This document shows, piece by piece, positions 47,002 through 64,000 of a stretch of DNA of 64,000 nt. This DNA comes from Thiomonas delicata (GTDB lineage Bacteria > Pseudomonadota > Gammaproteobacteria > Burkholderiales > Burkholderiaceae_C): the NCBI RefSeq assembly GCF_900088825.1, contig NZ_LT592170.1, positions 1,682,109 through 1,746,108 on the forward strand. The letters are read 5' to 3'. Position 1 is the stretch's first letter, and the number at the start of each line of letters is the position of its first letter. The translations under genes were made by a program, and so were the position numbers. Under the pieces are notes generated by a model that did no database searches, was not told where the DNA came from, and was given only the letters and a program-made list of their open reading frames with translations.

Positions 47002-47088
47002 AGCGCCGCAGGCCTGGCAAGCCAACGGCCGGTTGCCGCGCGCTGCCTGTGTGCCCGATTCTTGACCGTCCGCACCCCTCCTCCGCCT

Positions 47089-47116
47089 CTCCCCTCTCCA
47101 TGCATGGGGAGGGGAG
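47089..47116. repeat. near-perfect 28-bp palindrome in the cyclase/halogenase divergent region
   Basis: CTCCCCTCTCCATG is followed immediately by CATGGGGAGGGGAG, one mismatch in 14 bp. The composition is like the inner stem of the gpx/glcF hairpin. It may be a repeat or an operator shared by the divergent genes. Not otherwise explained. Confidence 0.5.
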
Positions 47117-47246
47117 GGAGCCACGCGCGCGCCGGAGTCCGCCTGCGTCCCTTCTAAAATGCCGCCACCTTCCAGGGCACCATAGACTGCGGCATGGGGC
47201 ATGGCTTTGGCAGGGTTTGTGTCCCCACCCGCACGCAGCGTTCAAC

Positions 47247-47277: not shown

Positions 47278-48627
47278 ATGACGGATTCACGAGATGGGGC
47301 TTCGGCACCGACCGCGGCGCAAGAGACCGACGTCCTGATCATCGGCGGCGGCCCCGGCGGGGCCACGGCGGCGGCGCTGCTGGCCGAGCGCGGCCTGCGC
47401 GTCGTGCTGGCGGAGAAGTCGCGGCATCCGCGCTTTCACATCGGCGAATCCCTGCTCCCGGCCAATCTGCCCTTGTTCGACAAGCTGGGCGTGGCCGACG
47501 AAGTGCGCGCCATCGGCATGGAGAAATGGGGCGCCGAGTTCGTCTCGCCCTGGCATGCGCAGAAGTCGCAGAGCTTCGTTTTCGCCGACGCCTGGGACAA
47601 GTCCATGCCGATGGCCTATCAGGTGCGGCGTTCGGACTTCGACCACATCCTGATCCGCAACGCCGCGCGCAAGGGCGCCCAGGTGGTGGAGGGCTGCGAG
47701 GTGCGCGACGTGCGGTTCCTGCCCGATGCGCAGGGCGCGGTCATCAGCGCCGCGCAGGACGACGGCAGCCTGGCGGTCTGGCGCGCGCGCTACGTCATCG
47801 ACGCCTCGGGCCGCGACACCTTTCTCTCCAGCCGCTTCAAGGCCAAGCACCGCGACCCCAAGCACAACAGCGCCGCGCTCTATGCCCATTTCACCGGGGC
47901 GCAGCGGCACGCTGGCAAGGAGCAGGGCAACATCACCATTTTCTGGTTCGACCACGGCTGGTTCTGGTTCATCCCGCTGGCCGACGGCGCCACCAGCGTG
48001 GGCGCCGTGGTCTGGCCCTATTTCCTCAAGACGCGCGGTTCCAGGTCGCTGGAGCAGTTCTTCGCCGACACCATCGCGATGTCACCGGCGCTGTCGGCAC
48101 GCTTGGAGGGCGCGGCCCGCGTGACCGAGGTCGAGGCCACCGGCAATTTCTCGTATCGCAGCGACCGCACGCACGGGCCGAATTACCTGCTGATCGGCGA
48201 CGCCTACGCCTTCATCGACCCGGTGTTTTCCTCCGGCGTGATGCTGGCCATGCAAGGGGCCTTCGTCGCTGCCGAGACGGTTGACGTCTGTCTGCGCCAC
48301 CCCGCGCGCGCGGCGCAGGCCCTGGCGCGCTTCGACCACCAGATCCGCTTCGGTCCGCGCGAATTTTCCTGGTTCATCTATCGCGTGAACCACCCCACGA
48401 TGCGCGACATGTTCATGGGGCCGAGCAATCTCTGGCGAGTGAAGGAAGCACTGCTGTCGGTGCTGGCGGGCGATATTTTCGGCACCACGCCGATCTGGAA
48501 CTCGCTGCGTCTGCTCAAGGGCATTTTCTATCTCGCCTCCTTGCGCCATCTGGGCAGATCGTGGCGGGCCGCTTTGCTGCGCAAGCGGCAAATCCGTCCG
48601 GAGCCGCTCGAGACGTCGAGCGGCTGA
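47278..48627 (+). CDS. flavin-dependent halogenase-like oxidoreductase
   Basis: A 449-residue FAD protein. The N-terminus binds flavin with IIGGGPGGATAAALLAERG (about residues 21-39), followed by HIGESLLPANL and YVIDASGRD. The halogenase signature W-x-W-x-I-P occurs as W228-F-W230-F-I232-P233, and K83 in EKWGAEF matches the lysine expected for HOCl activation. It is the first gene of a plus-strand operon with a chorismatase, which suggests halogenation of an aryl-polyene head group. A non-halogenating FAD oxidase is possible. Confidence 0.8.
   Translation: MTDSRDGASAPTAAQETDVLIIGGGPGGATAAALLAERGLRVVLAEKSRHPRFHIGESLLPANLPLFDKLGVADEVRAIGMEKWGAEFVSPWHAQKSQSFVFADAWDKSMPMAYQVRRSDFDHILIRNAARKGAQVVEGCEVRDVRFLPDAQGAVISAAQDDGSLAVWRARYVIDASGRDTFLSSRFKAKHRDPKHNSAALYAHFTGAQRHAGKEQGNITIFWFDHGWFWFIPLADGATSVGAVVWPYFLKTRGSRSLEQFFADTIAMSPALSARLEGAARVTEVEATGNFSYRSDRTHGPNYLLIGDAYAFIDPVFSSGVMLAMQGAFVAAETVDVCLRHPARAAQALARFDHQIRFGPREFSWFIYRVNHPTMRDMFMGPSNLWRVKEALLSVLAGDIFGTTPIWNSLRLLKGIFYLASLRHLGRSWRAALLRKRQIRPEPLETSSG
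48602..48625. promoter_or_regulatory. hairpin across the halogenase-chorismatase gene junction
   Basis: AGCCGCTCGA (48602-48611) pairs with TCGAGCGGCT (48616-48625) around GACG. It includes part of the halogenase stop codon and ends just before the chorismatase start, so it could affect translational coupling. Confidence 0.45.
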
Positions 48628-49694
48628 TGGCGGGGGCCCCCATGTTGCAACTGCAGTTCATGCCGGCTGCCGAGCTTGCCGGCCAAGCGTCGCTTGGGCC
48701 GGACGGCGTGCTCGGCGCGGCCTGCTTCGGCATCGAGCCGCCGGCTTCGCTGGCGGCGCTGGATCTGCCCTTGGCCTGCGTGCGGGTCGCGCCCCTGTGT
48801 GCCGGCGCGACCCCGCCCGTTGCCGCCGTCTGCGAGGTCTGGACCACCGCCGCGCCGCTGCGCCGGGGGGAGCACGGGCGGCTGCGCTACCGTTGCAGCG
48901 AAGAGATCTTGTTCGGCACGCTGTCGATCCCGGTGGCCGACGCGGAGCCGGTCGCCGCCAACATGGCCCCGGCGATGCAGCGCGCCGCCGAGCGCGCCTA
49001 CGCCGAGCTGTTCGCCGCCGTGGAGGCGCTGGGTTTTCCTCACCTGCTCCGGGTGTGGAACCACGTGCCGGACATCAATGGCCGCAGCGCGGGGCTGGAG
49101 CATTACCGCCTGTTCAATATCGGCAGGCAGGACGCGTTCCTGGCGTTCGATCGTCAAATCGCCGGGGCCAGCGTGCCGGCGGCCAGCGCCTTGGGCGCGC
49201 AGGACGGTTCTGCGCTGGTGGTGTACTGCATGGCGGCCCGCCGGCCCGCAGCGGCCCTGGAGAACCCGCGCCAGATCAGCGCCTACGACTACCCGCGCGA
49301 CTACGGCCCGCGCGCGCCGACGTTTTCGCGCGCCAACCTGGCGCGTATCGATGGCCAGTCCGTCCTGTTCATTTCCGGCACCGCCAGCATCGTCGGCCAC
49401 CAGACCCAGCATGCCGGGGACGCGGCCATGCAGACCCGCGAGACCTTGCGCAACATCGAGGCGCTGTTGCAGCAGGCCGCCCGGCGCGGCGCCGCGGGCT
49501 TGCGCCTGGAGCATTTGCATTACAAGGTGTACGTGCGCCACGCGCATGATCTGCCCCTGGTGCGCGCCGAGCTGGAGCGCGCCGCGGGCGGCGGCGCGCG
49601 AGTGCTGTATCTGCAGGCCGACGTCTGCCGTGCGGACCTGCTGGTGGAAATCGAGGCCGTGGCCTTTCCCGCGGAACCGGAGTCTCCATGTTGA
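48627..49694 (+). CDS. chorismatase / hydroxybenzoate synthase (XanB2-like)
   Basis: A 355-residue protein of the chorismatase (RidA-related fold) family. Enzymes of the XanB2 type turn chorismate into 3- and 4-hydroxybenzoate, the aromatic starter of xanthomonadin. The central motif RVWNHVPDINGRSAGLEHYRLFN and the later VLFISGTASIVGHQTQHAGD resemble this family; the gene has no signal peptide. The ATG at 48627 overlaps the upstream stop by 1 nt; a second ATG lies at 48642. Other chorismatase products cannot be excluded. Confidence 0.8.
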   Translation: MAGAPMLQLQFMPAAELAGQASLGPDGVLGAACFGIEPPASLAALDLPLACVRVAPLCAGATPPVAAVCEVWTTAAPLRRGEHGRLRYRCSEEILFGTLSIPVADAEPVAANMAPAMQRAAERAYAELFAAVEALGFPHLLRVWNHVPDINGRSAGLEHYRLFNIGRQDAFLAFDRQIAGASVPAASALGAQDGSALVVYCMAARRPAAALENPRQISAYDYPRDYGPRAPTFSRANLARIDGQSVLFISGTASIVGHQTQHAGDAAMQTRETLRNIEALLQQAARRGAAGLRLEHLHYKVYVRHAHDLPLVRAELERAAGGGARVLYLQADVCRADLLVEIEAVAFPAEPESPC

Positions 49695-50527
49695 ACCGCC
49701 GCGTCCCGGCCGCGCTGGCCTTCCTGGCGCTGTGCGCCTTGCCGGCTGGCGCCCAGGCCGACCCCAAGCCGCTGTGGGAAGCGGGGCTGGGGGTGGGGGC
49801 GCTCACCTTTCCCGATTACGTCGGCTCGGACCGGCAGCACGGCGACCTGCTGCCGGTGCCGTATTTCGTCTACCGCGGAGAGATCATCAAGGCCGGGCGC
49901 AACGGCGTGCAGGCCCGCTTGTTCGACAGTCTGCACGCCGAGGTCTATTTCAGCCTCGGCGCCTCGCCGCCGGTCAACAGCACCGACAACCGCGCGCGCA
50001 GCGGCATGCCCGACCTCAGGCCCATGGTCGAATTCGGCCCCGCACTGGAAGTGCATCTGTGGGGCTCCGCCGCGCGACGCATGCGCCTGGATTTTCGCGC
50101 GCCGCTGCGCAGCGCCTTCACCGTGGAGTCGCATACGCGCCAGGTCGGCTGGGTGTTCGCGCCGGTGCTGAACCTGGACATGGCCGATGTGGCCGGACTG
50201 CAGGGCTGGAACCTCGGCGCGCAGGCCGGGCCGATCTTCACGGACCGCAGCTACAACCAGACCTTCTACGGCGTCGCTCCCGGCGAGGCCACCGCCACGC
50301 GACCGGCCTACAGCGCCCAGGGGGGCTATGCGGGCAGCCAGTTCACCCTGGCGCTGAGCAAGCGCTTCCCCGGCTTCTGGGTAGGGGCGTTCACACGCTA
50401 CGACAATCTCGCAGGTGCGGTGTTTGCCGACAGCCCGCTGGTGCGGCGCAGCCGCAATGTGTCGGCCGGCATCGGTATTGCCTGGATCCTGGGGCAGTCT
50501 TCGCAAATGGTCGAAAGCCATGAATGA
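49688..50527 (+). CDS. MipA/OmpV family outer-membrane protein
   Basis: A 279-residue protein with a signal peptide (LAFLALCALPAGAQA, cleavage near residue 24). The mature part has the MipA/OmpV pattern of amphipathic strands (GVGALTFPDYVGSDRQ; ending with AGIGIAWIL) and so is likely a beta-barrel. MipA is a scaffold for murein enzymes; OmpV-like members also take up oligosaccharides. It overlaps the chorismatase stop by 7 nt and may help place a pigment or its precursor in the outer membrane. This role is inferred. Confidence 0.78.
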   Translation: MLNRRVPAALAFLALCALPAGAQADPKPLWEAGLGVGALTFPDYVGSDRQHGDLLPVPYFVYRGEIIKAGRNGVQARLFDSLHAEVYFSLGASPPVNSTDNRARSGMPDLRPMVEFGPALEVHLWGSAARRMRLDFRAPLRSAFTVESHTRQVGWVFAPVLNLDMADVAGLQGWNLGAQAGPIFTDRSYNQTFYGVAPGEATATRPAYSAQGGYAGSQFTLALSKRFPGFWVGAFTRYDNLAGAVFADSPLVRRSRNVSAGIGIAWILGQSSQMVESHE

Positions 50528-51326
50528 CGACGTGATACGTGCGGCACCCATGCCCGGCCGTCTGCGCACGGCCTGGGACGCGGCGCGCGTGTATTTCGGC
50601 CTGGGCGTGCTGGGCGTGCTGGGCTTTTTGTGGTCGCTGCTGGCGGTGCCGCTGTATTACCTGCTGCCGCGCAGGCTCGGGCAGGCGCTGGGGCGCGGGC
50701 TGATCCACCATGCCTTTCGCTTCTACCTGCGCACGCTGGCGGTGATCGGCGCCTGCCGCTTCGACCTCTCGGCGCTGGACGCACTGCGTGGGCAAGCGCC
50801 GATGATCATCGCGCCCAACCATCCGACGCTCATCGACGCGGTGCTGGTGATCTCGCGCCTGCCGGGGCTGGCTTGCATCATGAAGGCCAGCATTCTCGAC
50901 AACCCGTCCCTCGGCGCCGGCGCGCGCCTGGCGCGCTACATCCGCAACGACTCGCTGCGCAACATGATCAACCTGGCCGTGGCCGACCTGCACGAAGGCC
51001 ACCACTTGCTGCTTTTTCCCGAGGGCACGCGCTCCACGCGCCTGCCCATCGGCGCGGTACGCGGCAGCGTCGGGCTCATCGCCAAGCAGGCCCAGGTGCC
51101 GGTGCAGACCGTGTTCATCGAGACCGACTCCCCCTTCCTCGCCAAGGGCTGGCCCTTGTTCCGCCGCCCGCTGTTGCCCATCACGTACCGTCTGCGGCTG
51201 GGGCGCCGTTTCGACGCGCCACAAGACGTGCAAACGTTCGTGGCCGAACTCGAGGCCTACTTCCGCTGCGCGCTGGCCGACGCCTGCCTGCCCGCTCCGT
51301 TGACAAGCACCCAGGACGATGACTGA
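50520..51326 (+). CDS. 1-acylglycerol-3-phosphate O-acyltransferase-type acyltransferase
   Basis: A 268-residue acyltransferase of the PlsC family with a membrane helix near the N-terminus (about residues 25-48). The catalytic HX4D motif appears as NHPTLID, followed by the glycine/serine-rich FPEGTRSTRLPIG region. In an aryl-polyene context it could attach the polyene to a lipid carrier; a phospholipid role is the alternative. The start overlaps MipA by 8 nt. Confidence 0.82.
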   Translation: MNDDVIRAAPMPGRLRTAWDAARVYFGLGVLGVLGFLWSLLAVPLYYLLPRRLGQALGRGLIHHAFRFYLRTLAVIGACRFDLSALDALRGQAPMIIAPNHPTLIDAVLVISRLPGLACIMKASILDNPSLGAGARLARYIRNDSLRNMINLAVADLHEGHHLLLFPEGTRSTRLPIGAVRGSVGLIAKQAQVPVQTVFIETDSPFLAKGWPLFRRPLLPITYRLRLGRRFDAPQDVQTFVAELEAYFRCALADACLPAPLTSTQDDD

Positions 51327-52116
51327 GCAATCCGCAACCGACCCCGGCGACAACCCGCCGCAACCTTCGTCCACCCATCTCGTTCTCATCCCCAGCTACA
51401 ACCCGGGCGCCCAGGTGTACGACACCGTGCGCGCGGCGCGCGCTCGGTGGGCGCCGGTCTGGGTGGTCGTGGACGGCAGCCGCGACGGCAGCGCCGAGGG
51501 CCTGCAAGCGCTGGCCGCGGCCGATGCCCAACTGCGCGTGATGGTTCTGCCGGAGAACCGCGGCAAGGGCGCCGCCGTCCTGCATGGACTGGACGCCGCC
51601 GCCGCCGCGGGCTACACGCATGTGCTGACCATGGATTCCGACGGCCAGCACCCGGCCGACCGCATCCCCGTCTTCATGGCCGCCTCGCAACAGCAGCCGC
51701 GCGCCATGGTGCTGGGCGTGCCGGTGTTCGACGCCAGCGCGCCCAATCTGCGCGTGCAGGGGCGCAAGGTGTCCAACGCCTGGGCCAATCTGGAAACCCT
51801 CTGGGCCGGCATCGGCGATTCGCTCTACGGCTTTCGCGTCTATCCGGTCAAGGCCCTGCGCCGGATCATGCACCGCCAGACCTGGATGCGTCGTTTCGAC
51901 TTCGATCCCGAGGCCGTGGTGCGCCTGAGCTGGGCGGGGATTCCGGCCGTCAACCTGCCCGCGCCGGTGCGCTACCTGCGTGCCGAGGAAGGCGGGGTCT
52001 CGCACTTCAACTACTGGCGCGACAACGCCTTGCTGACGTGGATGCACACCAGGTTGTTCCTCGGCTTCGTGCTGCGCCTGCCGCTGCTGTTGTGGCGGCG
52101 CTTGCGCGGGGGCTGA
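51319..52116 (+). CDS. family-2 glycosyltransferase
   Basis: A 265-residue GT-A enzyme. The donor site shows the IPSYN start, VVDGSRDGS and D106-S-D108 in TMDSDGQHP. A short hydrophobic region is at the C-terminus. Such enzymes in aryl-polyene clusters are thought to build the sugar part of the lipid-linked product; the donor and acceptor are unknown. It overlaps the acyltransferase by 8 nt and is the last gene of the plus-strand operon. Confidence 0.85.
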   Translation: MTEQSATDPGDNPPQPSSTHLVLIPSYNPGAQVYDTVRAARARWAPVWVVVDGSRDGSAEGLQALAAADAQLRVMVLPENRGKGAAVLHGLDAAAAAGYTHVLTMDSDGQHPADRIPVFMAASQQQPRAMVLGVPVFDASAPNLRVQGRKVSNAWANLETLWAGIGDSLYGFRVYPVKALRRIMHRQTWMRRFDFDPEAVVRLSWAGIPAVNLPAPVRYLRAEEGGVSHFNYWRDNALLTWMHTRLFLGFVLRLPLLLWRRLRGG

Positions 52117-52135
52117 GGCGGCGGGATCCGTCCAT

Positions 52136-52159
52136 CTGCGCGCTTGCCTATACGCGCAG
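52136..52159. terminator. hairpin between convergent operons
   Basis: CTGCGCG and CGCGCAG pair around a 10-nt loop in the 104-bp gap between glycosyltransferase and antiporter genes. No T-run is present. A bidirectional terminator role is inferred from position. Confidence 0.35.
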
Positions 52160-52220
52160 CATCGAGGGGGTGCAGACGGGGCGGGTCGACAAGGCCTGGA
52201 GCTGAGTTCAGGGCGGATCG

Positions 52221-53534
52221 TCAGGCTTGCGGCGATGCGGCGGGCATGTCGGTGGGCGCAGGCAGGGCGTAGCCGGCACGTGGCAGCCACAGGCGCAGCA
52301 GCGGGGCGGTGAGGATGGTGCTGAAGATGGCCATGATGACCAGCATGGTGAACACCGGCCGGGAGATGGCGCCGAGGTCGTAGCCGACGTTGATGACGAT
52401 GAGTTCCATCAGCGCGCGGGTGTTCATCAGGGCGCCCATGATGCCGGCTTCGGGCCGGCTCATGCCGCAGATGCGCGCGGCCAGATAGGCGGCGCCGAAC
52501 TTGCCCAGGGTGGCGAGCAGCACCAAGGCCGCGCACCAGGCCCACAGCGCGGCGCTGGCGAGGCCGCCGATGTCGGTGCGCAGGCCGGTGTAGGTGAAGA
52601 AGATGGGCAGGAAAAACACCAGCACGAAAGGGGAGACCTGGTCGTTCCAGGCGCGCACGAAACGGGTCTCGTCGTGCAGGATGACGCCCATCATGAAACC
52701 GCCGAAGATGGCGAAGATGCCGATCTGGTAGGTGGCCATGCCCGAGGCGAAGATCGCCGCCAGCACGATGCCGAGCAGGTGCGGCGGCAGGTCGCGTCCC
52801 GCGGCCTGGAAGCGGTGGACGATGCGGCGCATCAGCGGCCGCAGGCCGAACATCCACAGCAGCATGAAGCCCAGCACCAGCGCCACCTTGATGGCGAAGG
52901 ACGCGGCGTCGAAATGGCTGAGCGTGAGGGTGGTGACGAGCGCCAGCAGCAGCCAGCCGGCGACGTCGTTGATGGCCGCGGCGCTGATGGCGATCACGCC
53001 CAGCGGCGTGCGCGTGAGGTTGAAGTCCATCAGGATGCGGCCGAGGATGGGCAGCGCGGTGATGGAAAACGCCGTGGCGACGAACAGCGCCGACGCCACG
53101 CGCCCCGCCTGCGGCGACAGTTCCGGCGCGGCAACCCAGCCCCAGGCGGCCCCGAGGGCGAAGGGCGCGACCATGCTGGCCAGACCCACCCACAGCACGG
53201 CGCGGCGGTTCCGTCCGCTGCGCAGGTGGCCGAAATCGAACTCCAGGCCGATCTGGAACATCAGCAGGATGAGCCCGATCTGCGACAGCATCTGCAGCGG
53301 TGCGGGCGGGATGGAGAGGAAGATGGCATGGAAGGCGCGCGGCGCGAGCAGCCCCAGCAGCGAGGGGCCGAGCAGGATGCCGACGACGATCTCGCCCACG
53401 GCGGCGGTCTGTCCCAATCGCACGGCGATTTCGCCGCCGACGCGGGCGGCCAGCACGATGAGGGTCAGTTGCAGCAGGACGAAGAACAGCATCGACTCGG
53501 TTGCATGCTGGGCGATGTGGATCGTGGGCTGCAT
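52221..53534 (-). CDS. cation:proton antiporter (CPA2/Kef-like)
   Basis: A 437-residue membrane protein with about 12 helices and the CPA2-type motifs EIVVGILLGPSLLG and DVAGWLLLALV. No TrkA-N regulatory domain follows, so it is the short form. It would exchange K+ or Na+ for H+. It begins 39 nt after the ketoreductase gene of the minus-strand pigment operon and so is probably cotranscribed with it. A second ATG at 53492 is possible. Confidence 0.85.
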   Translation of the reverse strand: MQPTIHIAQHATESMLFFVLLQLTLIVLAARVGGEIAVRLGQTAAVGEIVVGILLGPSLLGLLAPRAFHAIFLSIPPAPLQMLSQIGLILLMFQIGLEFDFGHLRSGRNRRAVLWVGLASMVAPFALGAAWGWVAAPELSPQAGRVASALFVATAFSITALPILGRILMDFNLTRTPLGVIAISAAAINDVAGWLLLALVTTLTLSHFDAASFAIKVALVLGFMLLWMFGLRPLMRRIVHRFQAAGRDLPPHLLGIVLAAIFASGMATYQIGIFAIFGGFMMGVILHDETRFVRAWNDQVSPFVLVFFLPIFFTYTGLRTDIGGLASAALWAWCAALVLLATLGKFGAAYLAARICGMSRPEAGIMGALMNTRALMELIVINVGYDLGAISRPVFTMLVIMAIFSTILTAPLLRLWLPRAGYALPAPTDMPAASPQA

Positions 53535-53573
53535 GAGGGGCGCGGGGGAGGCGTGTGGGCGGGAAGGCGGCGG

Positions 53574-54317
53574 TCAGATCATCGCGCCGTTGATGGACAC
53601 GACCTGGCCGCTGATGTAGGCGGCCTGGTCCGAGGCGAGGAAGCCGACGAGGTCGGCCACTTCCTCGGGCCGCCCGGCGCGCTTCATCGGCACCATGCGG
53701 GCGATGGTTTCGGCGTCGAAGCTGTCGGCGCTCATGGGCGTGGCGATGATGCCGGGAGCCACGGCATTGACCGTGATGCCGCGGCTCGCCACTTCCAGCG
53801 CCAGCGACTTGGTGGCGGCGTGCAGCGCGCCCTTGGCGGCGGCGTAGTTGACCTGGCCGCGGTTGCCGGCAATCGCGGCCACCGAGGTGATGTTGACGAT
53901 GCGGCCCCAGCGCGTGCGGATCATGGGCAGCATGAGCGGCTGGGTGACGTGGAAAAAGCCGTTGAGGCTGACGTCGATCACGCGCTGCCACTGCAACGCG
54001 CGCATGCCGGGGAACACGGCGTCGTCGTGCACGCCGGCGTTGTTCACCAGCACTTGCACCGGCCCGTCGGCGAGGATGGCGGCGATGGCGGCGGCGGTGG
54101 CGGCGGCATCGGTGATGTCGAAGGCTGCGGCCTGCGCGCTTGCGCCCTGCGCACGCAATTCTGCGGCCAGCGCTTCGGCGCGGTCGGCGCCGTGGTTGGC
54201 GTGCACGATGACGTGGCAACCGTCGGCGGCCAGGCGGCGGCAGATGGCGGCGCCGATGGCTCCGCTGCCGCCGGTGACGAGGGCGCGGCGGGCATGGGCT
54301 GCTGCGGGCTTGCTCAT
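53574..54317 (-). CDS. 3-oxoacyl-ACP reductase (FabG/ApeQ-like)
   Basis: A 247-residue short-chain dehydrogenase that reduces 3-ketoacyl groups on a carrier protein. The NADPH-binding GGSGAIGAAI, the NNAG strand, the catalytic triad Ser/Tyr/Lys (ITSVAA, then VNYAAAKGALHAATKS) and the terminal ISGQVVSINGAMI of FabG are present. It is the ketoreductase of the aryl-polyene assembly line. It overlaps the upstream dehydratase gene by 4 nt (ATGA). Confidence 0.88.
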   Translation of the reverse strand: MSKPAAAHARRALVTGGSGAIGAAICRRLAADGCHVIVHANHGADRAEALAAELRAQGASAQAAAFDITDAAATAAAIAAILADGPVQVLVNNAGVHDDAVFPGMRALQWQRVIDVSLNGFFHVTQPLMLPMIRTRWGRIVNITSVAAIAGNRGQVNYAAAKGALHAATKSLALEVASRGITVNAVAPGIIATPMSADSFDAETIARMVPMKRAGRPEEVADLVGFLASDQAAYISGQVVSINGAMI

Positions 54318-54841
54318 GGCTGGGTGTGGTCGGGAGAATGAAGTGGCCCGGGCAGGGGCGGGCGGGCGCCCGTCGTCTGGACGTCGAGCACGACCGCGGC
54401 CTGACCTTCCATCAGCAGGCGTTTCCCGGCGCGCAAGGCGAAGGTGTAGCGCAGCAGCTGGGCGTCGGCGCCGTCGCAGACCGCCTGCACGAGGAGGTCC
54501 GCGGCGATGTCGTCGAGCCGCGCCACGTGCCAACGCACCGCGCGCGCGCTGACCAGCATGCCGGGCCGCGGGGCGGCGTCGCCGGTTTCGCCCGATGCGC
54601 GCAGCGCGCCGTGCACGGCCATGGCCTGCGCGGCGTATTCGATGCCGCACGCCACGCCCAGCCGGCCGTATTGACGCAGCGGGTTGGCGGGGCTGCGGTG
54701 GCTGCGGGCGGCACACAGCACATGCCCGGCGTCCCAGGCGAGCACCGCGTCGAGCAGGCACATGGAACCCTGGTGCGGAATGCGCGCGGCGATCCAGTCG
54801 CGGTCCAGCGCCTGGCCCCGCAAGGTGGCGACGTTCAGCAT
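54314..54841 (-). CDS. hotdog-fold 3-hydroxyacyl-ACP dehydratase (ApeP-like)
   Basis: A 175-residue hotdog protein. The start contains IPHQGSMCLLDAVLAW, like the FabA/FabZ substrate-binding segment, with H23 as the catalytic histidine. In characterised clusters the dehydratase is a heterodimer of ApeI and ApeP, and a second small dehydratase gene is present at 61750-62085, matching that pair. It overlaps the CLF-like gene by 7 nt. Confidence 0.75.
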   Translation of the reverse strand: MLNVATLRGQALDRDWIAARIPHQGSMCLLDAVLAWDAGHVLCAARSHRSPANPLRQYGRLGVACGIEYAAQAMAVHGALRASGETGDAAPRPGMLVSARAVRWHVARLDDIAADLLVQAVCDGADAQLLRYTFALRAGKRLLMEGQAAVVLDVQTTGARPPLPGPLHSPDHTQP

Positions 54842-56891: not shown

Positions 56892-56961
56892 CAGGCGACG
56901 GACGCGGCGGGCCGTGCCGCATCGGTCCGCGCGGCGTCGATCAGGTACGGAAACATTCGGT

Positions 56962-57795
56962 TCAGGCGCATGAAAAAGCTTGACGCAAGGTGATGGGGCG
57001 CAATCCGGCGGCCGCGATCGACCTCAGCAGCGCGGGCAGCACTTCGAGGACGACCGGCTGCCCCGAGGCCGTGCGCGCGGCGTGGCCGTCGTGCAGCAGC
57101 AGGATGTCGCCGGCGCGCAGGCTGCGGCGCAGACGGCGCAGGACCGTGATTGGATCACGCTCGCGGGTGTCGAAGCCGCGCCGCGTCCAGCTCACCAGGC
57201 GCAGGCCGAGCCGGTGGAGAACCGGGTCGAGGAAAGGGTTGCGCAAACCGGCGGGGGCGCGGAAGAACGCCGGAACCTGCCCGGTGATGTCTGTCAGGGT
57301 GGCTTGCGCGGCTTGCAATTCGCGCCCGAAGCCGCGCGGGCCGGACAGCGAGAAGCTGTGGCGGTGGCGCTGGCTGTGGTTCTCCACGGCGTGGCCGCGC
57401 CGCACGATCTCGCGGCACAGGTCCGGGTGGGCGCGGGCGCGTTCGCCGATGCAAAAGAACGTGGCCCTGGCGTCGTGGGCGTCGAGCAGATCGAGCACGG
57501 CGGGGGTGACGCGGGGGTCGGGCCCGTCGTCGATGGTCAGCGCGAGTTCGCCGCGCGCCGCCGCATCGGTGGGTAGACGCGTGTGGTTGGCGCCGAGCAG
57601 GCGGCTGCGCGGCCACAGTCCGGCGCCGGTGAGCGCCATGTGATCGGCCGCCAAGGCGCCCAGCGCCCAGGGCCAGAGTTGCGGCAGCGCGAGCATCGTG
57701 CCCAGCGCCAGCGGGTGCAGGGCGATGGACGCCGCGAGGAGCGGCGTGGGTCGCCAGCGCGTTGCGGGACGGGGAGGGACGGCAGGGGTGGGCAT
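56962..57795 (-). CDS. polysaccharide deacetylase family protein
   Basis: A 277-residue membrane-anchored NodB-type protein. Hydrophobic segments fill the first 60 residues. The catalytic domain has LTIDDGPDPRVTPAVLDLL, the metal histidines in NHSQRHRHSF, and RAPAG then LLLHDGHA. NodB-type enzymes remove acetyl groups from carbohydrate acceptors. In the middle of an aryl-polyene operon it could act on a carrier glycan, but this is inferred. Confidence 0.82.
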   Translation of the reverse strand: MPTPAVPPRPATRWRPTPLLAASIALHPLALGTMLALPQLWPWALGALAADHMALTGAGLWPRSRLLGANHTRLPTDAAARGELALTIDDGPDPRVTPAVLDLLDAHDARATFFCIGERARAHPDLCREIVRRGHAVENHSQRHRHSFSLSGPRGFGRELQAAQATLTDITGQVPAFFRAPAGLRNPFLDPVLHRLGLRLVSWTRRGFDTRERDPITVLRRLRRSLRAGDILLLHDGHAARTASGQPVVLEVLPALLRSIAAAGLRPITLRQAFSCA

Positions 57796-57816
57796 CGGCG
57801 TGCTGGGTGGGCGGCG

Positions 57817-60183
57817 TCAGGCCGGCGCGCGGCGCGGCGGCGTGGCGTTTGGTGGAGCCGACAGCATGGCCGAAAACAGCAGGGCCAACAACACCCCGGG
57901 GCCCACGGTCATGCCCAGCGCCTGCAGCACCGGCACGCCCGACAAGGCCAGCGGACCGAAGCCGAACACGGTGGTGAGATTGGCCAGCAGCAGCGAGGCC
58001 AGGGTGCGCGGCGCGATGCCGCCGCTTTGCGCTCCCTGGTCGAAGAACAGCGCGTAGTTCGAGCCGACCGCGACGATGAGCATCAGGCCGATGAGGTGCA
58101 GCAGAGTGAGTTGGCGCCCGGCCAGCAGCAGTCCGGCGCCGACCACCACCACCGCGCCCAGCAGCGGGGCCAGGATCCGCAGGGTGCGGCGCGCGGAGCG
58201 CAGGGCGAGCAGGAGCAGGACGGCGATGGAGATCAGGCCCGCCAGGGACAGCCAGGCGGCAGTATGCAGGTAGCCGTCGTAGAGGCTGCTGCTGATCCGG
58301 CCCAGGTTGATGTAAGTCGCTTGGGTTCCGGCCAGCGCGGCATGCACCTGCGCGGCGTCGATGCTTGCATGCGCCCTGGCATGCAGCGGCAGCATGGCGA
58401 GCCAGCGACCGTCGGGCTCGCGCAGCAGCATGCCGTCGAGCGCCATGGCGAACGAGGTGTGCGCGAGCTGTTCGCGCGTCAGCAGGCCCTGCGCGCGCGC
58501 GGCCTGCACGTCGCGCACGAAGGGGGCGAACAGCGCGGCCTTGACCGGCAGGCCGGCCACGGCCTGCTCCAGCCGGGAGCGCAGCACATCGGCATCGGGC
58601 AGCGCGGCGAGCCGGCTGCGCTGGGTGGCCGCGCTGGGCAGATAGTGGGCGGGGCTGTCGAAGCCGGCGATCACGCCGCGCGCAACCAGGCCTTGCAGGC
58701 GCGGGCGCAGGCTCTCGGCTGCCGCCAGGGCGGCATCGGCGCTGGAACCTTCGACCGCGACCAGATCACCCGAATCGGGCGCGCCGAGCTGGCGGCGCAG
58801 CTGCGCGTCCAGCGCCAGTGCGGCGGGACTCACGGGGCTGAGCGCGGACAGCCTGGTGTTCCACATGGCATGGCGGTGGGCGACGAGCACGCCGGCCGCC
58901 AGCAGCACGGCGACGCCGAGCAGCCAGCGCAAGCGCCGCAGGGCAGGAAGCCGCGCGGCCAGGCGTTGGCCGAAAGGCGCGAGATCGCGCATGGACAGGC
59001 GCGCGGGCAACAGCTGCGGCAGCACGAAGCGCGTGACCAGCGCCGCGGCGACCAGGCCGGCGATGGAATACAGGCCGAGCTGGGCCAGTCCGGGGAATCC
59101 CGACAGCAGCAGGGTGGCGAAGCCGAACACCGAGGTCAGCATGCCCAGGCGGATGGTGGGCCAGAAGCCGTGCCGCCAGGCGTTGCGGTCGAGCTGCGCC
59201 GGCTGGGCCGACTGCACGAACAGGTAGATCGCGTAGTCCACCGCCTCGCCCATGAGGGTGGTGCCGAAACCCAACGTGATGCCTTGCACCACGCCGAAGC
59301 CCAGGCTGACCGCGGCGATGCCGGCGAGCACGCCCGACAGCACCGGCAGCAGGCCCAGCGCCAGAGCCAACGGGGAGCGGTAGACGAGCAGCAGCAGGCC
59401 GACGATGAGCACGGCCCCGATGAGCGAAACACGCGTTGCCGCGCGTTCGATGAGCGCGCGTGACTGCACGGCGAATACACCGGCTCCGCTCATCACCAGC
59501 GTGGCCTCGCGCGCCGAGCCGCCGGCCTGGCGCTGCGCCGCGGCGAAGTCGGTGCGGATGGCGGCCAACGCGGCCTGCAGCGCATCGGTGTCGGTGCCCT
59601 GGGCGCGGGTTTGCACCAGCAGCAGCGCGCGCGCTGCGCCGTGCGCAACCCAGACGCCCTGGGCTCGTTCGGGGCCGTTGCCCGGCGTAAGGTTCTGCAG
59701 CAGGTTCAAGAACGCGCCGGTGGGGTCGGACGGCAGCAGACTTTTGAGGTTTTGTCCCATCGGCGAAGCCAGGCGGTCGATGCTGTCGGCGATGGCGCGG
59801 TGCAGGCCCGCGACGCTGAACTCCGACGCGGTGGTGTGCGTCAGCACGTAGCGATAGCGCAGTAGCAAGCGCTCGTCGCGCTCTGCGTTGACGGGTTCCC
59901 CGTTTTCCACGACGGCAAAGGCGGGGTCGGCGCGCAGGCGCTCGGCCAGGGCTTTGGACAGCGCGGCGCGCGCGTCGGCGTCGGCGCCGTCGATGCCGAT
60001 CAGGATCAGGCGCGAGATCAGTCCATCGCGCAGCTGATTCACCAGAACGCGTTCTTGCGCCGTCGGCGCCTGCGGCAGGAAGGCCGACATGTCGGCGGCA
60101 AAGCGGCTGTTGGCGATGACCGCCGCGCAAGCCAGCAGCGCGGCCAGCCACAGCAGCACCGGGAGGGCTGCGCGCCGGTTCAT
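57817..60183 (-). CDS. MMPL/RND-family exporter
   Basis: A 788-residue inner-membrane exporter with about 12 helices in two repeats, each preceded by a large periplasmic domain (about residues 30-260 and 430-600). The first repeat contains GFGTTLMGEAVDYAIYLFVQSAQ, the second AVGSNYALFFDQGA. MMPL-type exporters in aryl-polyene clusters are thought to move the lipid-linked pigment toward the outer membrane. Its start overlaps the LolA-like gene by 4 nt. Confidence 0.85.
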   Translation of the reverse strand: MNRRAALPVLLWLAALLACAAVIANSRFAADMSAFLPQAPTAQERVLVNQLRDGLISRLILIGIDGADADARAALSKALAERLRADPAFAVVENGEPVNAERDERLLLRYRYVLTHTTASEFSVAGLHRAIADSIDRLASPMGQNLKSLLPSDPTGAFLNLLQNLTPGNGPERAQGVWVAHGAARALLLVQTRAQGTDTDALQAALAAIRTDFAAAQRQAGGSAREATLVMSGAGVFAVQSRALIERAATRVSLIGAVLIVGLLLLVYRSPLALALGLLPVLSGVLAGIAAVSLGFGVVQGITLGFGTTLMGEAVDYAIYLFVQSAQPAQLDRNAWRHGFWPTIRLGMLTSVFGFATLLLSGFPGLAQLGLYSIAGLVAAALVTRFVLPQLLPARLSMRDLAPFGQRLAARLPALRRLRWLLGVAVLLAAGVLVAHRHAMWNTRLSALSPVSPAALALDAQLRRQLGAPDSGDLVAVEGSSADAALAAAESLRPRLQGLVARGVIAGFDSPAHYLPSAATQRSRLAALPDADVLRSRLEQAVAGLPVKAALFAPFVRDVQAARAQGLLTREQLAHTSFAMALDGMLLREPDGRWLAMLPLHARAHASIDAAQVHAALAGTQATYINLGRISSSLYDGYLHTAAWLSLAGLISIAVLLLLALRSARRTLRILAPLLGAVVVVGAGLLLAGRQLTLLHLIGLMLIVAVGSNYALFFDQGAQSGGIAPRTLASLLLANLTTVFGFGPLALSGVPVLQALGMTVGPGVLLALLFSAMLSAPPNATPPRRAPA

Positions 60184-60776
60184 GGCGAGGCGACGGGGGT
60201 GATGTGCATGACCGAACGGTCGCCGTCGCTCTGTTCCACGGTGACGGTGCGCACCATGCCCGCGCGCCCGCCGATGCGGATGTCACGCACGTGTTCGCGT
60301 GTCTTGTCGTCGCGCGGAACCAGGGTCAGGGTCCATTGCGCCTGCGTTCCCTCCAGCGTCAGCGTGTAGTGTTTCTGCAGGGTGGACAGATCGCCGTTGA
60401 GCGTGGCGCGTATGCCGTCGATCAGGGTGGCGATATCGGGATGGTCGCGCAGGTCGAACTGCTGCGAGCGCCCACCCATCTCCAGCGTGACCTGGTTGCC
60501 CATCAGCGTGAGGGTCTGCGGCTTGGGCTTGAGCGTGCGCATCTGCAGAAAGTCAGGCGCCGCGAAACGCAGTTCGCCGGACGATTCGATGGGCTTGTCC
60601 AGCATCGCCAGGGTCTTGGTTTCGGTGAAATCGGCGCGGCCGCCGCGGTACTGCGCCAAGGCTTGCGTCAGTGTTTGCAGGTTCCAGCCGGCGGCTGGGG
60701 CGCAGGCGGACCACAGCAGCGCCAGGCCGGCCAGGCCGGCGCGCAGCGCGGGATTGAGGACGGATGCGAGCTTCAT
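60180..60776 (-). CDS. LolA-like periplasmic carrier protein
   Basis: A 198-residue exported protein with an N-terminal signal peptide (LAGLALLWSACAPAAG) and the LolA-type fold signatures (DFTETKTLAML, ELRFAAPDFLQMRTLKP). Paralogues of LolA occur with aryl-polyene genes and are predicted to carry the hydrophobic product across the periplasm to the outer membrane. It is flanked by the MMPL exporter and an acyltransferase with 4-nt overlaps on both sides. Confidence 0.8.
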   Translation of the reverse strand: MKLASVLNPALRAGLAGLALLWSACAPAAGWNLQTLTQALAQYRGGRADFTETKTLAMLDKPIESSGELRFAAPDFLQMRTLKPKPQTLTLMGNQVTLEMGGRSQQFDLRDHPDIATLIDGIRATLNGDLSTLQKHYTLTLEGTQAQWTLTLVPRDDKTREHVRDIRIGGRAGMVRTVTVEQSDGDRSVMHITPVASP

Positions 60777-61753
60777 GGTGCTTGTGTTCCCGCGGGCCTT
60801 TCGGCTTCGCCGGCCCAGAAATCATAGAAATTGAACCAGTTGTCGGGCGCGCTTTCGCAGTGGGCCTGCAGGCGGCGCACATAGGTGGCGAGGGCCGCCT
60901 GCACGGCCTCGCTGCGTGAACCGCGCTCGGTCGCGGAGAAATCGGCCAGGGTCTCGAAGTGCACGTCGTAGCGGTTGCCGCCGCGGTAGATGCCCAGGGC
61001 CATGACGACGGGCCTGCGCAGCAGCGCGGCGATGCGCCAGGGCCCCAGTGGCCACTGCGCCGGCTCGCCGAGGAAGGGCAGGGTCGCGGTTTCGTCGTCA
61101 TGCAGGGAGCGGTCCGCCAGCATGCCGACGACGGCGCCTTCATCGAGCGCCTCGCGCAGGCGCAGCATGGAATCCGAGTGTCCCAGCGCAATGATGTCCC
61201 GCTCCGCGCGCGGGTTGATGGCCTGCAGCGCGGCATTGATCTTGCGCGCGTTGTCCTCGTACATCAGCATGCACACGCGCGGGCCCTGGTGCTGGCGCGA
61301 GAGGGCGCGCAGGACCTCGAAGCTGCCGAAATGGGCGCCGATCATGAAGACGCCCTCACCGCGCTGCAGCGCGGCTTCGATGACGTCCTGTCCGTGCAGG
61401 CGGATGTCGAACAGATCGAAACGATCATTGAGCAGGTAGACCCGGTCGTGAATGGTCGACGCGAAGCTGAACACCTGCGCGAAACCATCGGCCAGCCGAG
61501 CCCGTCTGCCGAGCGCGCGTTCCAGATATCGGCGCGAGGCGTGCCTCGCGCTGGGGGCGAACAGCAGGAAGTACGCGGCGATGCCCGCCAGGACGACGCG
61601 TGACGCGCGCCGGCCCAGGTGGAGGGAGATCCAGGTCATGACGCGCAGCATCAGCCTGTTGCTGCGCTCGGCACGGCGTGCCCAGCCGGTGCGCGCCGCA
61701 ACGCCCGTCGTGTCGGCGTGCGGCATGGCTGGCGGCGGTTGGCGCGTGCTCAT
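60773..61753 (-). CDS. LpxL/HtrB-like lysophospholipid acyltransferase
   Basis: A 326-residue membrane acyltransferase. One N-terminal membrane helix (about residues 42-62) is followed by a catalytic domain with the H-x4-E motif HFGSFE, and DNARKINAALQ. The family includes lipid A late acyltransferases (LpxL/HtrB). In this operon it may attach the aryl polyene to a lipid. Both ends overlap neighbouring genes by 4 nt. Confidence 0.82.
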   Translation of the reverse strand: MSTRQPPPAMPHADTTGVAARTGWARRAERSNRLMLRVMTWISLHLGRRASRVVLAGIAAYFLLFAPSARHASRRYLERALGRRARLADGFAQVFSFASTIHDRVYLLNDRFDLFDIRLHGQDVIEAALQRGEGVFMIGAHFGSFEVLRALSRQHQGPRVCMLMYEDNARKINAALQAINPRAERDIIALGHSDSMLRLREALDEGAVVGMLADRSLHDDETATLPFLGEPAQWPLGPWRIAALLRRPVVMALGIYRGGNRYDVHFETLADFSATERGSRSEAVQAALATYVRRLQAHCESAPDNWFNFYDFWAGEAERPAGTQAP

Positions 61754-62085
61754 CGGACCGCTTCGCTGGCCGGCATCCGCGGCGGGGCGCCGGATTGGCG
61801 CAGGCGCCCGCTGGCCACGGTGCGCGCCTGGGCATGCAGGCTGAAGGCGATGGCGCCATCGGCCGCGGCGTCGTGGCGCAGTTCCAGCGATGTGCCGGGT
61901 GACACCGGGGAGAGGAATTTGACCGTGGCGAGGTGCCAGCCGGTTTCGTCAAGGCCTTGGGCCGCGCACACGGCATGCACCACGGCGTCGAGCAGCATGA
62001 CGCCGGGCACGATGGGACGCCCCGGAAAGTGCCCGGCATAAACGGGGTGGTCCGCGCAAGGCGCGGTCAGCGTTTCAGTCGGCAT
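61750..62085 (-). CDS. small hotdog dehydratase (FabZ-like, ApeI-like)
   Basis: A 111-residue hotdog protein. The segment HPVYAGHFPGRPIVPGVMLLDAVVHAV matches the FabZ active-site helix with H19. In known systems this small dehydratase (ApeI) forms a heterodimer with the second one (ApeP), and such a partner is at 54314-54841. The start at 62085 (MPTETL) gives a family-length product; it overlaps the ligase stop by 11 nt and the acyltransferase start by 4 nt. Confidence 0.75.
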   Translation of the reverse strand: MPTETLTAPCADHPVYAGHFPGRPIVPGVMLLDAVVHAVCAAQGLDETGWHLATVKFLSPVSPGTSLELRHDAAADGAIAFSLHAQARTVASGRLRQSGAPPRMPASEAVR

Positions 62086-63442
62086 GGGGGCTGGAATCGT
62101 GGATTTGCGGCGGCGGCGCGCGCATGGCCAATGCGTGCAAGGCGGACCGCGGCAGCTTGCCCGTGGCGTTGCGCGGCAGCGCGTCGACAAGCACCAGCGG
62201 GCGCGGCATGAACACCGGGTCGATGCGTTCGCGCAGCGCGGCGCGCACGAGATCGTGATCCAGCCCCGGAGCGACGACGAAGGCCATGAGCCGCGTCACG
62301 GAATCATCCGTTTCGGCGTCCGGCATGAAGAAGGCGCCGTCGCGCACGCCAGGGATGCTGGCGAGCTGGTGATTGAGGTGGGCCAGCGAACTGCGTTTGC
62401 CGGCGATGTTGACCATGTCGGCGCTGCGTCCGTGCAGGCGGAAGCGGCGCTGGTCGACGATCTCGATCACGTCGTGCAGGACCTGCGCCTGCGCCAGATG
62501 GGCGCCGCAGACGCGGACGTGGCCTTGGGCTTCGGGTTCCAGGCGCAGGTCGGGGAGTAGTTCCCAGAGGTCGGTCTGCGCGGTGCGGCGCGTGGCGATC
62601 TGGCCTGTCTCGGTGGAGCCGTAGATTTCCAGCAGCGGAGCCTGCAGCCGGGCCTCGGCCAGTTGCGCCAGATCGGCTGGCAGCGCCGCCGTGGCCGACA
62701 GCAGCAGGTCCAAGGGGGGGATGCGCACGTGCGCATCGAGCAGCGCGCGCAAGTGCACGGGCGAGGTGACGAGCATGCGCGGCGCGGGGATGCGCGCCAG
62801 CGCGGCGGCAATGTCGGCCGGATAGAAAGGCTGTTCGGCGCTCATGGCCACTCCGCCATGCAGCGCGATGAGGGCCGTCGATTCGAAGCCGTACATGTGC
62901 TGGGCCGGAACCGTGCCGACCAGAGCATGGCGGCGCCCGTCCAGCAGACCCAGGCGCGAGGCGCCGGATTGCACGCAGCCGACGAGCGCGCCCCAGGCCT
63001 TGGCGTGCGGTACCGGAGTTCCGGTGGAGCCCGAGGTGAAGACCTGCGCAACGATGCGTTCGGCGTCGATGCGCGGCATGTCGATCTCGGCAGGCGCGGC
63101 GCAGCCGGCATCCCGCTCGGCGTAGGCGACGTGCGGCAGGTCGATGCCGTCATCGTGATCGCTCAAGCAGAAGGCGTCCGGGGCCAGGTCGCGCAATTGG
63201 CGTATCGCCTCGGGCGTGCGGGTCGAAGGCAGCAGGCTGGTCTTGCCGGCCATGACCGAGGCGGCGAACCCGGCCAGGAAGCGGTAGCGATCCTGGCAGA
63301 CATTGAGCACGTGGCGGCCGGGCGGCAGGCGAGCCGCGAGGGCCTGCACGTCGAGCAGGAATTCGCGCAGGTTCACCGCATGGCCGTTCCGCCAAGCCAG
63401 TACGTCATGCGCGGCAAGCCTGGAGACGAGGGGTAGCTGCAT
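62075..63442 (-). CDS. AMP-dependent acyl/aryl ligase (ApeH-like)
   Basis: A 455-residue adenylate-forming ligase. The P-loop is FTSGSTGTPVPHAK (about residues 135-148), the core has YGSTETGQIATRR, and the hinge region GRSADMVNIAGKR and the C-terminal lysine in ATGKLPRSAL complete the enzyme. In aryl-polyene pathways it activates the aromatic acid starter for loading on a carrier. With the XanB2-like enzyme nearby, hydroxybenzoate is the likely substrate. Confidence 0.85.
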   Translation of the reverse strand: MQLPLVSRLAAHDVLAWRNGHAVNLREFLLDVQALAARLPPGRHVLNVCQDRYRFLAGFAASVMAGKTSLLPSTRTPEAIRQLRDLAPDAFCLSDHDDGIDLPHVAYAERDAGCAAPAEIDMPRIDAERIVAQVFTSGSTGTPVPHAKAWGALVGCVQSGASRLGLLDGRRHALVGTVPAQHMYGFESTALIALHGGVAMSAEQPFYPADIAAALARIPAPRMLVTSPVHLRALLDAHVRIPPLDLLLSATAALPADLAQLAEARLQAPLLEIYGSTETGQIATRRTAQTDLWELLPDLRLEPEAQGHVRVCGAHLAQAQVLHDVIEIVDQRRFRLHGRSADMVNIAGKRSSLAHLNHQLASIPGVRDGAFFMPDAETDDSVTRLMAFVVAPGLDHDLVRAALRERIDPVFMPRPLVLVDALPRNATGKLPRSALHALAMRAPPPQIHDSSPHAD

Positions 63443-63482
63443 CGGCTTCGTGCTTGAGGGCGCGCGGGGGTCTCGCAAGGTT

Positions 63483-64000
63483 TCAGCGCGCCGAGATCGA
63501 GCCGGGGGCCATCGTCCCCGCCTGGTGGCTCGCCACGGGCGCGTCGCCGGCCTCGGTGCCATGCACCGCATGCTCCGTGGCATGTTTGCGATAGCGCATG
63601 AAAGCCGCCACCGCCTGCAAGGGGCCGGTGCGCTCGTGCGCGGGAAGCGCAAGCACCCGCACCCCGTATTCAGCGATGAACATGGCCAGGGTCAGGGGTG
63701 CGGTCAGCGCGTTGGCGAACAAGGCCCATATCGCCGGCGGCGCGGTGAGGAACAGCGTCGTCGACGTCAGCGCCATGAGCGTGAAAAACAGGGTCCAGGC
63801 CCAGGTGACGCCGCGCGTGTAGCGCGAGGTGCGCGGGGTGATGCGGCCTTCGTGTGCCACCAGCGCCAGGCGCGTGATCAGGGCCGTCTGGCCGCGCCGC
63901 AGGCTGTTGCCGAAAACCACGGCGAGCAGCACCATCGGGCCGGCGCTTTGGGCCAGATAGCCCCAGCGGTAGTGTTGCAGCAGCACATCGCGACCAAGCC
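63483..64000 (-). CDS. small integral-membrane protein, 5' end beyond window edge
   Basis: About 167 visible residues with three or four hydrophobic segments (GPMVLLAVVFGNSL; WAWTLFFTLMALTSTTLFL; IWALFANALTAPLTLAMFI). The frame is open up to the right edge (residues LGRD precede the first visible GTG), so the start is not shown. A short C-terminal region is Ala/His-rich. It lies 40 nt from the ligase gene on the same strand and looks like part of the pigment operon; I assign no function. Confidence 0.7.
   Translation of the reverse strand, partial: LGRDVLLQHYRWGYLAQSAGPMVLLAVVFGNSLRRGQTALITRLALVAHEGRITPRTSRYTRGVTWAWTLFFTLMALTSTTLFLTAPPAIWALFANALTAPLTLAMFIAEYGVRVLALPAHERTGPLQAVAAFMRYRKHATEHAVHGTEAGDAPVASHQAGTMAPGSISAR

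Follow-up and report, generated by a model that had tools for sequence, protein, structure and literature searches.

Aryl polyene pigments of the kind discussed here are a known bacterial sunscreen. The present analysis concerns a putative gene cluster for such a pigment in a 64,000-nucleotide stretch of Thiomonas delicata (the window: positions 1682109-1746108 of contig C4, NZ_LT592170.1, in the 3.84 Mb assembly GCF_900088825.1). A preliminary description, made from the sequence alone, had read it as an aryl-polyene system of the xanthomonadin type with a chorismatase and a halogenase-like enzyme. Positions given below are those of the window, and positions above 64000 lie past its right edge.

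In Azoarcus sp. BH72 the arc genes are divided between two unlinked loci; arcC is listed there as a MltA-interacting protein, and disruption of arcK or arcT abolishes the pigment (PMC3949708). The named genes of the Xanthomonas pig cluster encode a chorismatase, a halogenase, an acyl carrier protein (ACP), an AMP ligase, acyltransferases, a dehydratase and an exporter (PMC3838355, PMC3691225). In the yellow-pigment cluster of Lysobacter enzymogenes the ketosynthase (KS) always stands beside a half-size protein resembling a chain-length factor (CLF), and an ACP, a ketoreductase (KR), two dehydratases, a LolA-like carrier and a xanB2 homologue are also described (PMC3691225). The aryl polyene (APE) clusters of E. 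coli CFT073 and Xenorhabdus comprise ApeO, ApeC, ApeP, ApeI, ApeQ, ApeH and two ACPs (PMC8253772; PDB 6qsp, 6qsr), as well as three KS-type proteins, a LolA-like carrier and an RND transporter (PMC8253772).

Comparison with the Azoarcus, Xanthomonas and Lysobacter systems was based on published gene lists rather than on sequences. Counterparts of all the components just listed were found in T. delicata, and arcA-E, arcG-K, arcN and arcP-V of the published Table 1 were matched by function and by order within each block, here in one locus (PMC3949708). Unlike in Azoarcus, no counterpart of arcF was seen in the locus, to which the search for it was confined, and an additional ACP2-KS2-PAP2-dehydratase set was present at 66025-68820, with two small secreted proteins between (PMC3949708). 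The cluster differs from that of Lysobacter, for which the published gene list gives no halogenase (PMC3691225), and from that of E. coli, whose gene table lists neither a chorismatase nor a halogenase and whose starter is predicted to be 4-hydroxybenzoate (4-HBA) (PMC8253772). The methyltransferase, thioesterase and LolB-like protein reported for APE clusters were not seen in the locus, thioesterase and LolB having been looked for there and not genome-wide (PMC8253772).

Assignment of the pathway

The cluster was assigned, with a probability of about 0.93, to an aryl-polyene pathway of the xanthomonadin/arcuflavin type contained in one locus, the product of which would be a yellow, probably membrane-linked pigment. 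Gene identities, intact active-site motifs, conserved gene order and kinship to ApeO:C and ApeP were observed; we infer the substrates, the order of steps, halogenation, the anchor, and the location and function of the pigment. The xanthomonadin-type reading of the preliminary description is supported: the proteins of known structure ApeO:ApeC and ApeP were matched directly, and the published arc gene list agrees with the locus.

Several observations weigh against this assignment. Curated models matched a number of the proteins only below their cut-offs, and within the genus both the halogenase and the chorismatase were dispensable to the cluster. In Azoarcus, where arcA bears a halogenase annotation, the polyene of arcuflavin was nonetheless assigned as a heptaene without bromine (PMC3949708). 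Finally, the methyltransferase that had been expected near the cluster, an O-methyltransferase of the arcM type as in the xanthomonadin/arcuflavin subgroup, was not found in the source genome with a 115-residue N-terminal query from genome G034. Across 15 genomes, G034 included, the same query matched at 50% in G024 and weakly in G001, and an arcM-type match was present in 22/80 of the best related loci described below.

Elongation enzymes

Searched against all PDB sequences, the KS (K; 55662-56891, minus strand; ApeO/ArcK-like) reached 265 bits with each of 7f28_B and 6qsp_A (ApeO), while the next chain scored 168 bits; the NCBIfam model NF006618 was matched with 548 bits (cut-off 407). The Cys-His-His triad claimed for this protein was located at C168, H298 and H332. 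Its partner J (54835-55665, minus strand), a half-size KS resembling a CLF and similar to ApeC, ArcJ and Lysobacter ORF16 (PF13723, 7e-27), had only two distinct matches among PDB sequences at E values up to 10, namely 6qsp_B (ApeC, 7e-8) and 7f28_A. The AlphaFold model of J, built from a 29-row alignment, had a predicted local distance difference test score (pLDDT) of 90.7, and 6qsp_B was its top fold match. When the two proteins were compared by eye, Asp149 of J stood at the place of KS Cys168, and it was present in 91/91 rows, confirming that the partner lacks the nucleophile. Q162 of J, kept in 83/91 rows, probably corresponds to the essential Gln of the Lysobacter partner.

The two hotdog dehydratases of the preliminary description were recovered by different means. 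Dehydratase S (61750-62085, minus strand; ApeI/ArcS-like), which carries a GHFPG motif, was recognized by Pfam (PF07977, FabA, 2e-7; ApeI-like model 2.5e-4, below cut-off). Dehydratase I (54314-54841, minus strand; ApeP/ArcI-like; Pfam ApeP-like model 0.0027, below cut-off) was recognized only by profile and predicted fold, with ApeP, chain 6qsr_B in the solved structure of the ApeI:P complex, as the top PDB match by profile (1e-11) and by fold (AlphaFold model from a 27-row alignment, pLDDT 83.7). The KR (H; 53574-54317, minus strand; FabG/ApeQ/ArcH-like) exceeded the cut-off of NF004200 (357 against 273 bits) and carries Y158-x3-K162. As judged from sequence and modelled fold, K, J and I are the predicted aryl-polyene elongation machinery. 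The locus holds the ApeO-type KS and half-size, CLF-like ApeC-type partner of an aryl polyene type II polyketide synthase (PKS), accompanied by an ApeP/ApeI-type dehydratase pair, a KR, an ACP with an LDS motif and an aryl ligase (the ApeP-like, ApeI-like and ligase models matching below their cut-offs), and the LolA-like carrier and MMPL/RND exporter of aryl polyene clusters.

Organization of the gene cluster

Two convergent gene sets were found from 47278 onwards, one on the plus strand (47278-52116) and one on the minus strand (64509-52221), with facing ends at 52116 and 52221; a consensus scan of 52050-52280 detected no terminator between them. The plus set (A-E) encodes, in this order, the halogenase, the chorismatase, a MipA-type protein, a PlsC-type acyltransferase and a family 2 glycosyltransferase (GT2), with overlaps of 1-8 bases between neighbours. 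The minus set begins with ACP V, membrane protein U, ligase T, dehydratase S, LpxL-type acyltransferase R, LolA-like carrier Q and MMPL exporter P, and continues with deacetylase N, KS K, partner J, dehydratase I, KR H and antiporter G, its neighbours overlapping or being separated by at most 70 bases. Since starts and stops overlap and the same order recurs in relatives, the gene set is not a chance assembly.

Families were assigned by Pfam and NCBIfam profile searches. In the plus set, the MipA-family outer-membrane protein (49688-50527; ArcC-like) matched PF06629 (3e-40), the PlsC-type acyltransferase (50520-51326; ArcD-like) matched PF01553 (2e-12) and has an NHPTLID motif at 100, and the GT2 (51319-52116; ArcE-like) matched PF00535 (4e-19). 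In the minus set, the AMP-dependent aryl-ACP ligase (62075-63442; ApeH/ArcT-like) matched PF00501 (7e-15) and, below cut-off, TIGR02372 (4-coumarate-CoA ligase, 1e-38); its nearest PDB chains were those of 4-chlorobenzoate CoA ligase. The LpxL-type acyltransferase (60773-61753; ArcR-like; PF03279, 4e-15) has an HFGSFE motif at 141. The LolA-like periplasmic carrier (60180-60776; ApeL/ArcQ-like) matched PF19574 (6e-25) and, below cut-off, the flexirubin LolA2 model NF053544 (1e-18). The remaining genes encode the MMPL/RND-type exporter (57817-60183; ApeM/ArcP-like; PF03176, 1e-11), a NodB-type polysaccharide deacetylase (56962-57795; ArcN-like; PF01522, 1e-27) and a Na+/H+ antiporter-like protein (52221-53534; ArcG-like; PF00999, 2e-50). 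The membrane protein at 63483-64217, which extends past the right edge, is in the ArcU position and ApeG-like by position only; no model of Pfam or NCBIfam recognized it under the thresholds applied, and it lies between the ligase and ACP genes in relatives too.

All thirteen functions that the preliminary description had listed were present, with correct coordinates and quoted residues; the MipA-family protein, the antiporter, the deacetylase and the membrane protein are additions to it. Active-site residues or motifs were intact in the KS, the KR, the ACP, both acyltransferases, dehydratase S and the halogenase. A gene for a MASE2-GGDEF diguanylate cyclase (45826-47202) lies divergently from the halogenase gene at a distance of 75 bases; genomes G020 and G021 have another gene there.

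Halogenase

A catalytic Lys and a W-x-W-x-I-P motif are the hallmark of flavin-dependent halogenases. Both were found in the 449-residue ArcA-like protein encoded at 47278-48627 on the plus strand (Pfam Trp_halogenase, 6e-30, on a longer frame from 47194). In the numbering of the preliminary description, K83 was kept in 37/37 rows with a residue at that position, and W228, W230, I232 and P233, within the motif W228-F-W-F-I-P, in 38/38. The protein had also been put forward for comparison with characterized halogenases, and it ranked with them; this placement is a ranking against PDB and NCBIfam, the tree described below holding orthologues only. The closest PDB chains were 8zop, 3e1t, 5buk, ChlB4, PltA and CmlS, where ChlB4 and CmlS are taken by us to be halogenases. 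The ten best PDB matches (at least 142 bits) consisted of nine halogenases and one protein named as a flavoprotein/dehydrogenase (3nix); nine further halogenase sequences followed at 45-84 bits before the first other enzyme, a geranylgeranyl reductase, at 40.8 bits. The best NCBIfam model was CmlS (197 bits, cut-off 900), followed by that of the non-halogenating monooxygenase QhpG (165 bits, cut-off 240); as both matches were below cut-off, neither model assigns the protein.

It is somewhat more likely than not that some fraction of the pigment is halogenated. The invariance of K83, W228, W230, I232 and P233 argues for selection on halogenase chemistry, and brominated xanthomonadins have been reported from Xanthomonas (PMC3691225) and from Steroidobacter too. 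The alternative with the best standing is that the same pathway yields an unhalogenated product under ordinary conditions, the halogenase homologue being idle, limited by halide or active on a minor fraction only. This possibility, though the lesser one, is substantial, given the non-brominated heptaene of Azoarcus and five of the 24 same-genus relatives (G002, G004, G009, G017 and G018) in which the core gene J was present and no halogenase orthologue was found.

Chorismatase and aromatic starter

The second gene of the plus set (48627-49694) encodes a chorismatase of the FkbO/Hyg5 family similar to ArcB and XanB2 (PF21168, 9e-34; TIGR04444, 1e-69, 235 bits against a cut-off of 325), which could be aligned with Hyg5 and FkbO. 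Marker residues of the Hyg5 type (CH-II), which forms 3-hydroxybenzoate (3-HBA), are Gly, Gly and Cys together with a catalytic Glu (PMC7170507). With Hyg5 residue numbers placed by an inferred offset of 9, G240, C327 and E334 were kept, while G173 was replaced by Ala188, which was invariant in a 33-row alignment. The first CH-II marker Gly is therefore an Ala here; FkbO also has Gly at this position, so that the marker is a weak one. From the Hyg5/FkbO alignment the protein reads as a XanB2/ArcB-like (CH-III) enzyme, and PF21168 and the Hyg5 alignment together place a XanB2-type chorismatase in the cluster, as in the xanthomonadin/arcuflavin subgroup. A ubiC gene is present elsewhere in the source genome, separate from the cluster, and the chorismatase is therefore probably not needed for ubiquinone.

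The same UbiC could supply 4-HBA as the starter in place of 3-HBA from the chorismatase. In E. coli, 4-HBA is the predicted starter (PMC8253772), and no chorismatase was detectable in the clusters of 10 same-genus genomes. Such a starter is nevertheless improbable in T. delicata, where a chorismatase with intact catalytic residues is encoded by the second gene of the plus set. ArcB yielded 3-HBA in vitro, and Azoarcus incorporated fluorinated 3-HBA and not fluorinated 4-HBA (PMC3949708).

Other possible products

Pigments of the arcuflavin/flexirubin type are esters of the polyene with a dialkylresorcinol. DarB carries a C-terminal domain of the FabH superfamily. The source genome holds only two PF08541 (ACP_syn_III_C) domains, one in a protein consistent with the housekeeping FabH and the other in a type III PKS, so that the search for a FabH-type DarB, which did not extend to DarA, yielded no candidate; no dar-like genes were seen just to the right of the cluster. 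The arc genes are the closest published match to the locus, and Azoarcus makes such a hybrid (PMC3949708). The lack of a DarB candidate favours a xanthomonadin-like polyene that is either free or bound to lipid, and a dialkylresorcinol ester must be considered very unlikely. The type III PKS gene (L041, 676-3030; contig C5, ~606-609 kb) adjoins a gene resembling those of methyltransferases, has a FAD protein encoded in its vicinity, and presumably belongs to a separate phenolic-lipid locus.

The least likely alternative is a product other than an aryl polyene, with the type II enzymes building some lipid such as an unusual fatty acid: the acyltransferases, deacetylase and exporters would suit any glycolipid, and two proteins encoded past the edge, KS2 and the third dehydratase, resemble FabF and FabZ, but the nearest solved relatives are ApeO:ApeC and ApeP, and a chorismatase and an aryl-type ligase share the locus.

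Genes past the right edge of the window

The ACPs and the additional KS that had been predicted to lie past the right edge were found there. ACP V (64219-64509, minus strand) is the first gene of the minus set. It is followed by genes for two similar-looking, Pro/Tyr-rich small secreted proteins (64723-65034 and 65257-65631; minus strand) without a Pfam match, both of which also occur in G001 and G013, and one of them, sec1, alone in G020 and G021. Then come ACP2 (66025-66318), the FabF-like KS2 (66315-67574) with its triad intact, PAP2 (67598-68323) and a FabZ-like third dehydratase (68320-68820). The next gene, judged by its look alone, is presumably glnS.

KS2 and PAP2 lie beside the cluster in the source genome and in seven relatives (G005, G012, G014, G015, G019, G022 and G024). 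ACP2 was found in six of these seven, the exception being G015, whose fetched contig starts inside KS2, and the third dehydratase in G024 only. PAP2 alone occupies this position in G001, G013, G020 and G021; the stretches of G003, G008, G010 and G023 stop short of it. Owing to this patchy presence among relatives' stretches, the ACP2-KS2-PAP2-dehydratase set is accessory. In Xenorhabdus a third KS, ApeR, is needed for initiation in vitro (PMC8253772); at a guess, KS2 might have a like role or might supply acyl groups for the lipid anchor.

Distribution in other bacteria

A scan of named genomes with the KS gave at least 571 loci, of which the best 80 were examined with up to 10 kb on each side; many were cut by contig ends, and absence means that a gene was unseen within the fetched locus. 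Three of the 80 (L048, L053 and L055) appear to be genomes G020, G022 and G024 of the genus set. J stood beside K in 80/80 of these loci, which had been selected by K, and the deacetylase was present in 74/80, the MMPL exporter in 72/80 and the GT2 in 57/80. Matches to antiporter G were obtained in 24/80, several of them weak (~30%) and on the other strand. A chorismatase was found in 34 loci, a halogenase in 31, both in 18 and neither in 33. All sixteen core genes, including halogenase and chorismatase, were present in 9/80, among them loci of Azoarcus, Thiobacillus and Hydrogenophaga. As the full set recurs in several taxa, the gene combination is ordinary in betaproteobacteria and the cluster is of a known kind.

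Variation within the genus

The genus set consisted of the source genome and 24 relatives. J was present in 23/25 genomes. A halogenase orthologue of full or almost full length occurred in 17/25, with an identity of at least 67% in the relatives, one of them being cut by a contig end. G006, which had halogenase fragments only, was left out of the chorismatase search; a chorismatase was found in 6 of the 24 genomes searched. Cluster stretches, several of them cut by contig ends, were obtained from 15 of the 16 halogenase-bearing relatives and from G034, and the chorismatase was absent from 10 of the 15 relatives' stretches. Incomplete assemblies could mimic such absence; G020, G021 and G022 are 99-100% complete.

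The halogenase tree comprised 38 rows, G034, L099 and L123 being long ones, and its branches carry support from the Shimodaira-Hasegawa-like approximate likelihood ratio test (SH-aLRT) only. The 17 rows of the source genome, 15 relatives and G034 required three changes in chorismatase state, and all 38 rows required six. If the tree is read starting at L049, the closest chorismatase-bearing row outside the genus, two losses fall within the genus, which suggests that the gene disappeared on two occasions from clusters keeping the rest. A tblastn search for remnants in the ten empty slots, at E values up to 10, turned up either no match or matches at chance level, the best having an E value of 0.025. 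An IS605-type OrfB/TnpB gene, identified by Pfam, occupies the chorismatase position between the MipA and halogenase genes in G021, and a look-alike frame in G003; these genes lie at L016 14025-15065 (Pfam-scanned) and L017 2969-3967. In G013, the interval between the KS and deacetylase genes (L012, 14143-16405) holds what, from the translations, we take to be a fumarase-like gene and a malic-enzyme-like fragment.

Compensation by UbiC was not apparent, its presence not tracking chorismatase absence over the 25 genomes. The chorismatase-less G021 has two ubiC matches, at C2:2670917 and 2768707, ~98 kb apart; at ubiC locus L044, the stretch matched a neighbouring TetR-type gene and has no bearing on UbiC. 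A switch in ligase specificity was likewise not detected in an alignment drawn from 28 loci hand-picked among those fetched: no column had disjoint residues between 15 chorismatase-plus and 12 chorismatase-minus rows, nor did any in five control proteins.

Discussion

In the proposed pathway, the chorismatase would convert chorismate to 3-HBA, perhaps to 4-HBA too, and the AMP ligase would load the hydroxybenzoate onto the ACP encoded at 64219-64509. KS and J would then add malonyl units, the FabG-type KR would reduce and the ApeP/ApeI-like pair dehydrate, and repeated cycles would lead to an aryl-polyenoyl-ACP. The FADH2-dependent halogenase would most likely halogenate the phenolic ring, on either an ACP-bound or a free precursor. 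The GT2, the NodB-type deacetylase and the two acyltransferases, of the PlsC and LpxL types, would fit an amino-sugar lipid anchor, to which they may couple the polyene. The MMPL exporter, the LolA-like carrier and the MipA-type protein would deliver the pigment to the outer membrane, where, like related pigments for which this is reported, it may quench damage by light and peroxide.

On a less likely reading of the variation within the genus, the aryl-polyene core would be a platform whose ends can be exchanged, the halogenase and the starter supply being gained or lost independently. Two chorismatase-less lineages, in which ligase, halogenase and core are kept, might then have moved from 3-HBA to another starter, such as 4-HBA, and might make differently substituted halogenated pigments by the same machinery, though this proposal is doubtful.

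This genus can be added to those with a xanthomonadin-type pathway, here complete within a single locus. Its natural variants, in which the core is kept and the halogenase or the chorismatase is missing, open two questions to testing: whether the conserved ArcA-type halogenases act on the pigment, a non-brominated product having been reported, and which starter is used after loss of the chorismatase.

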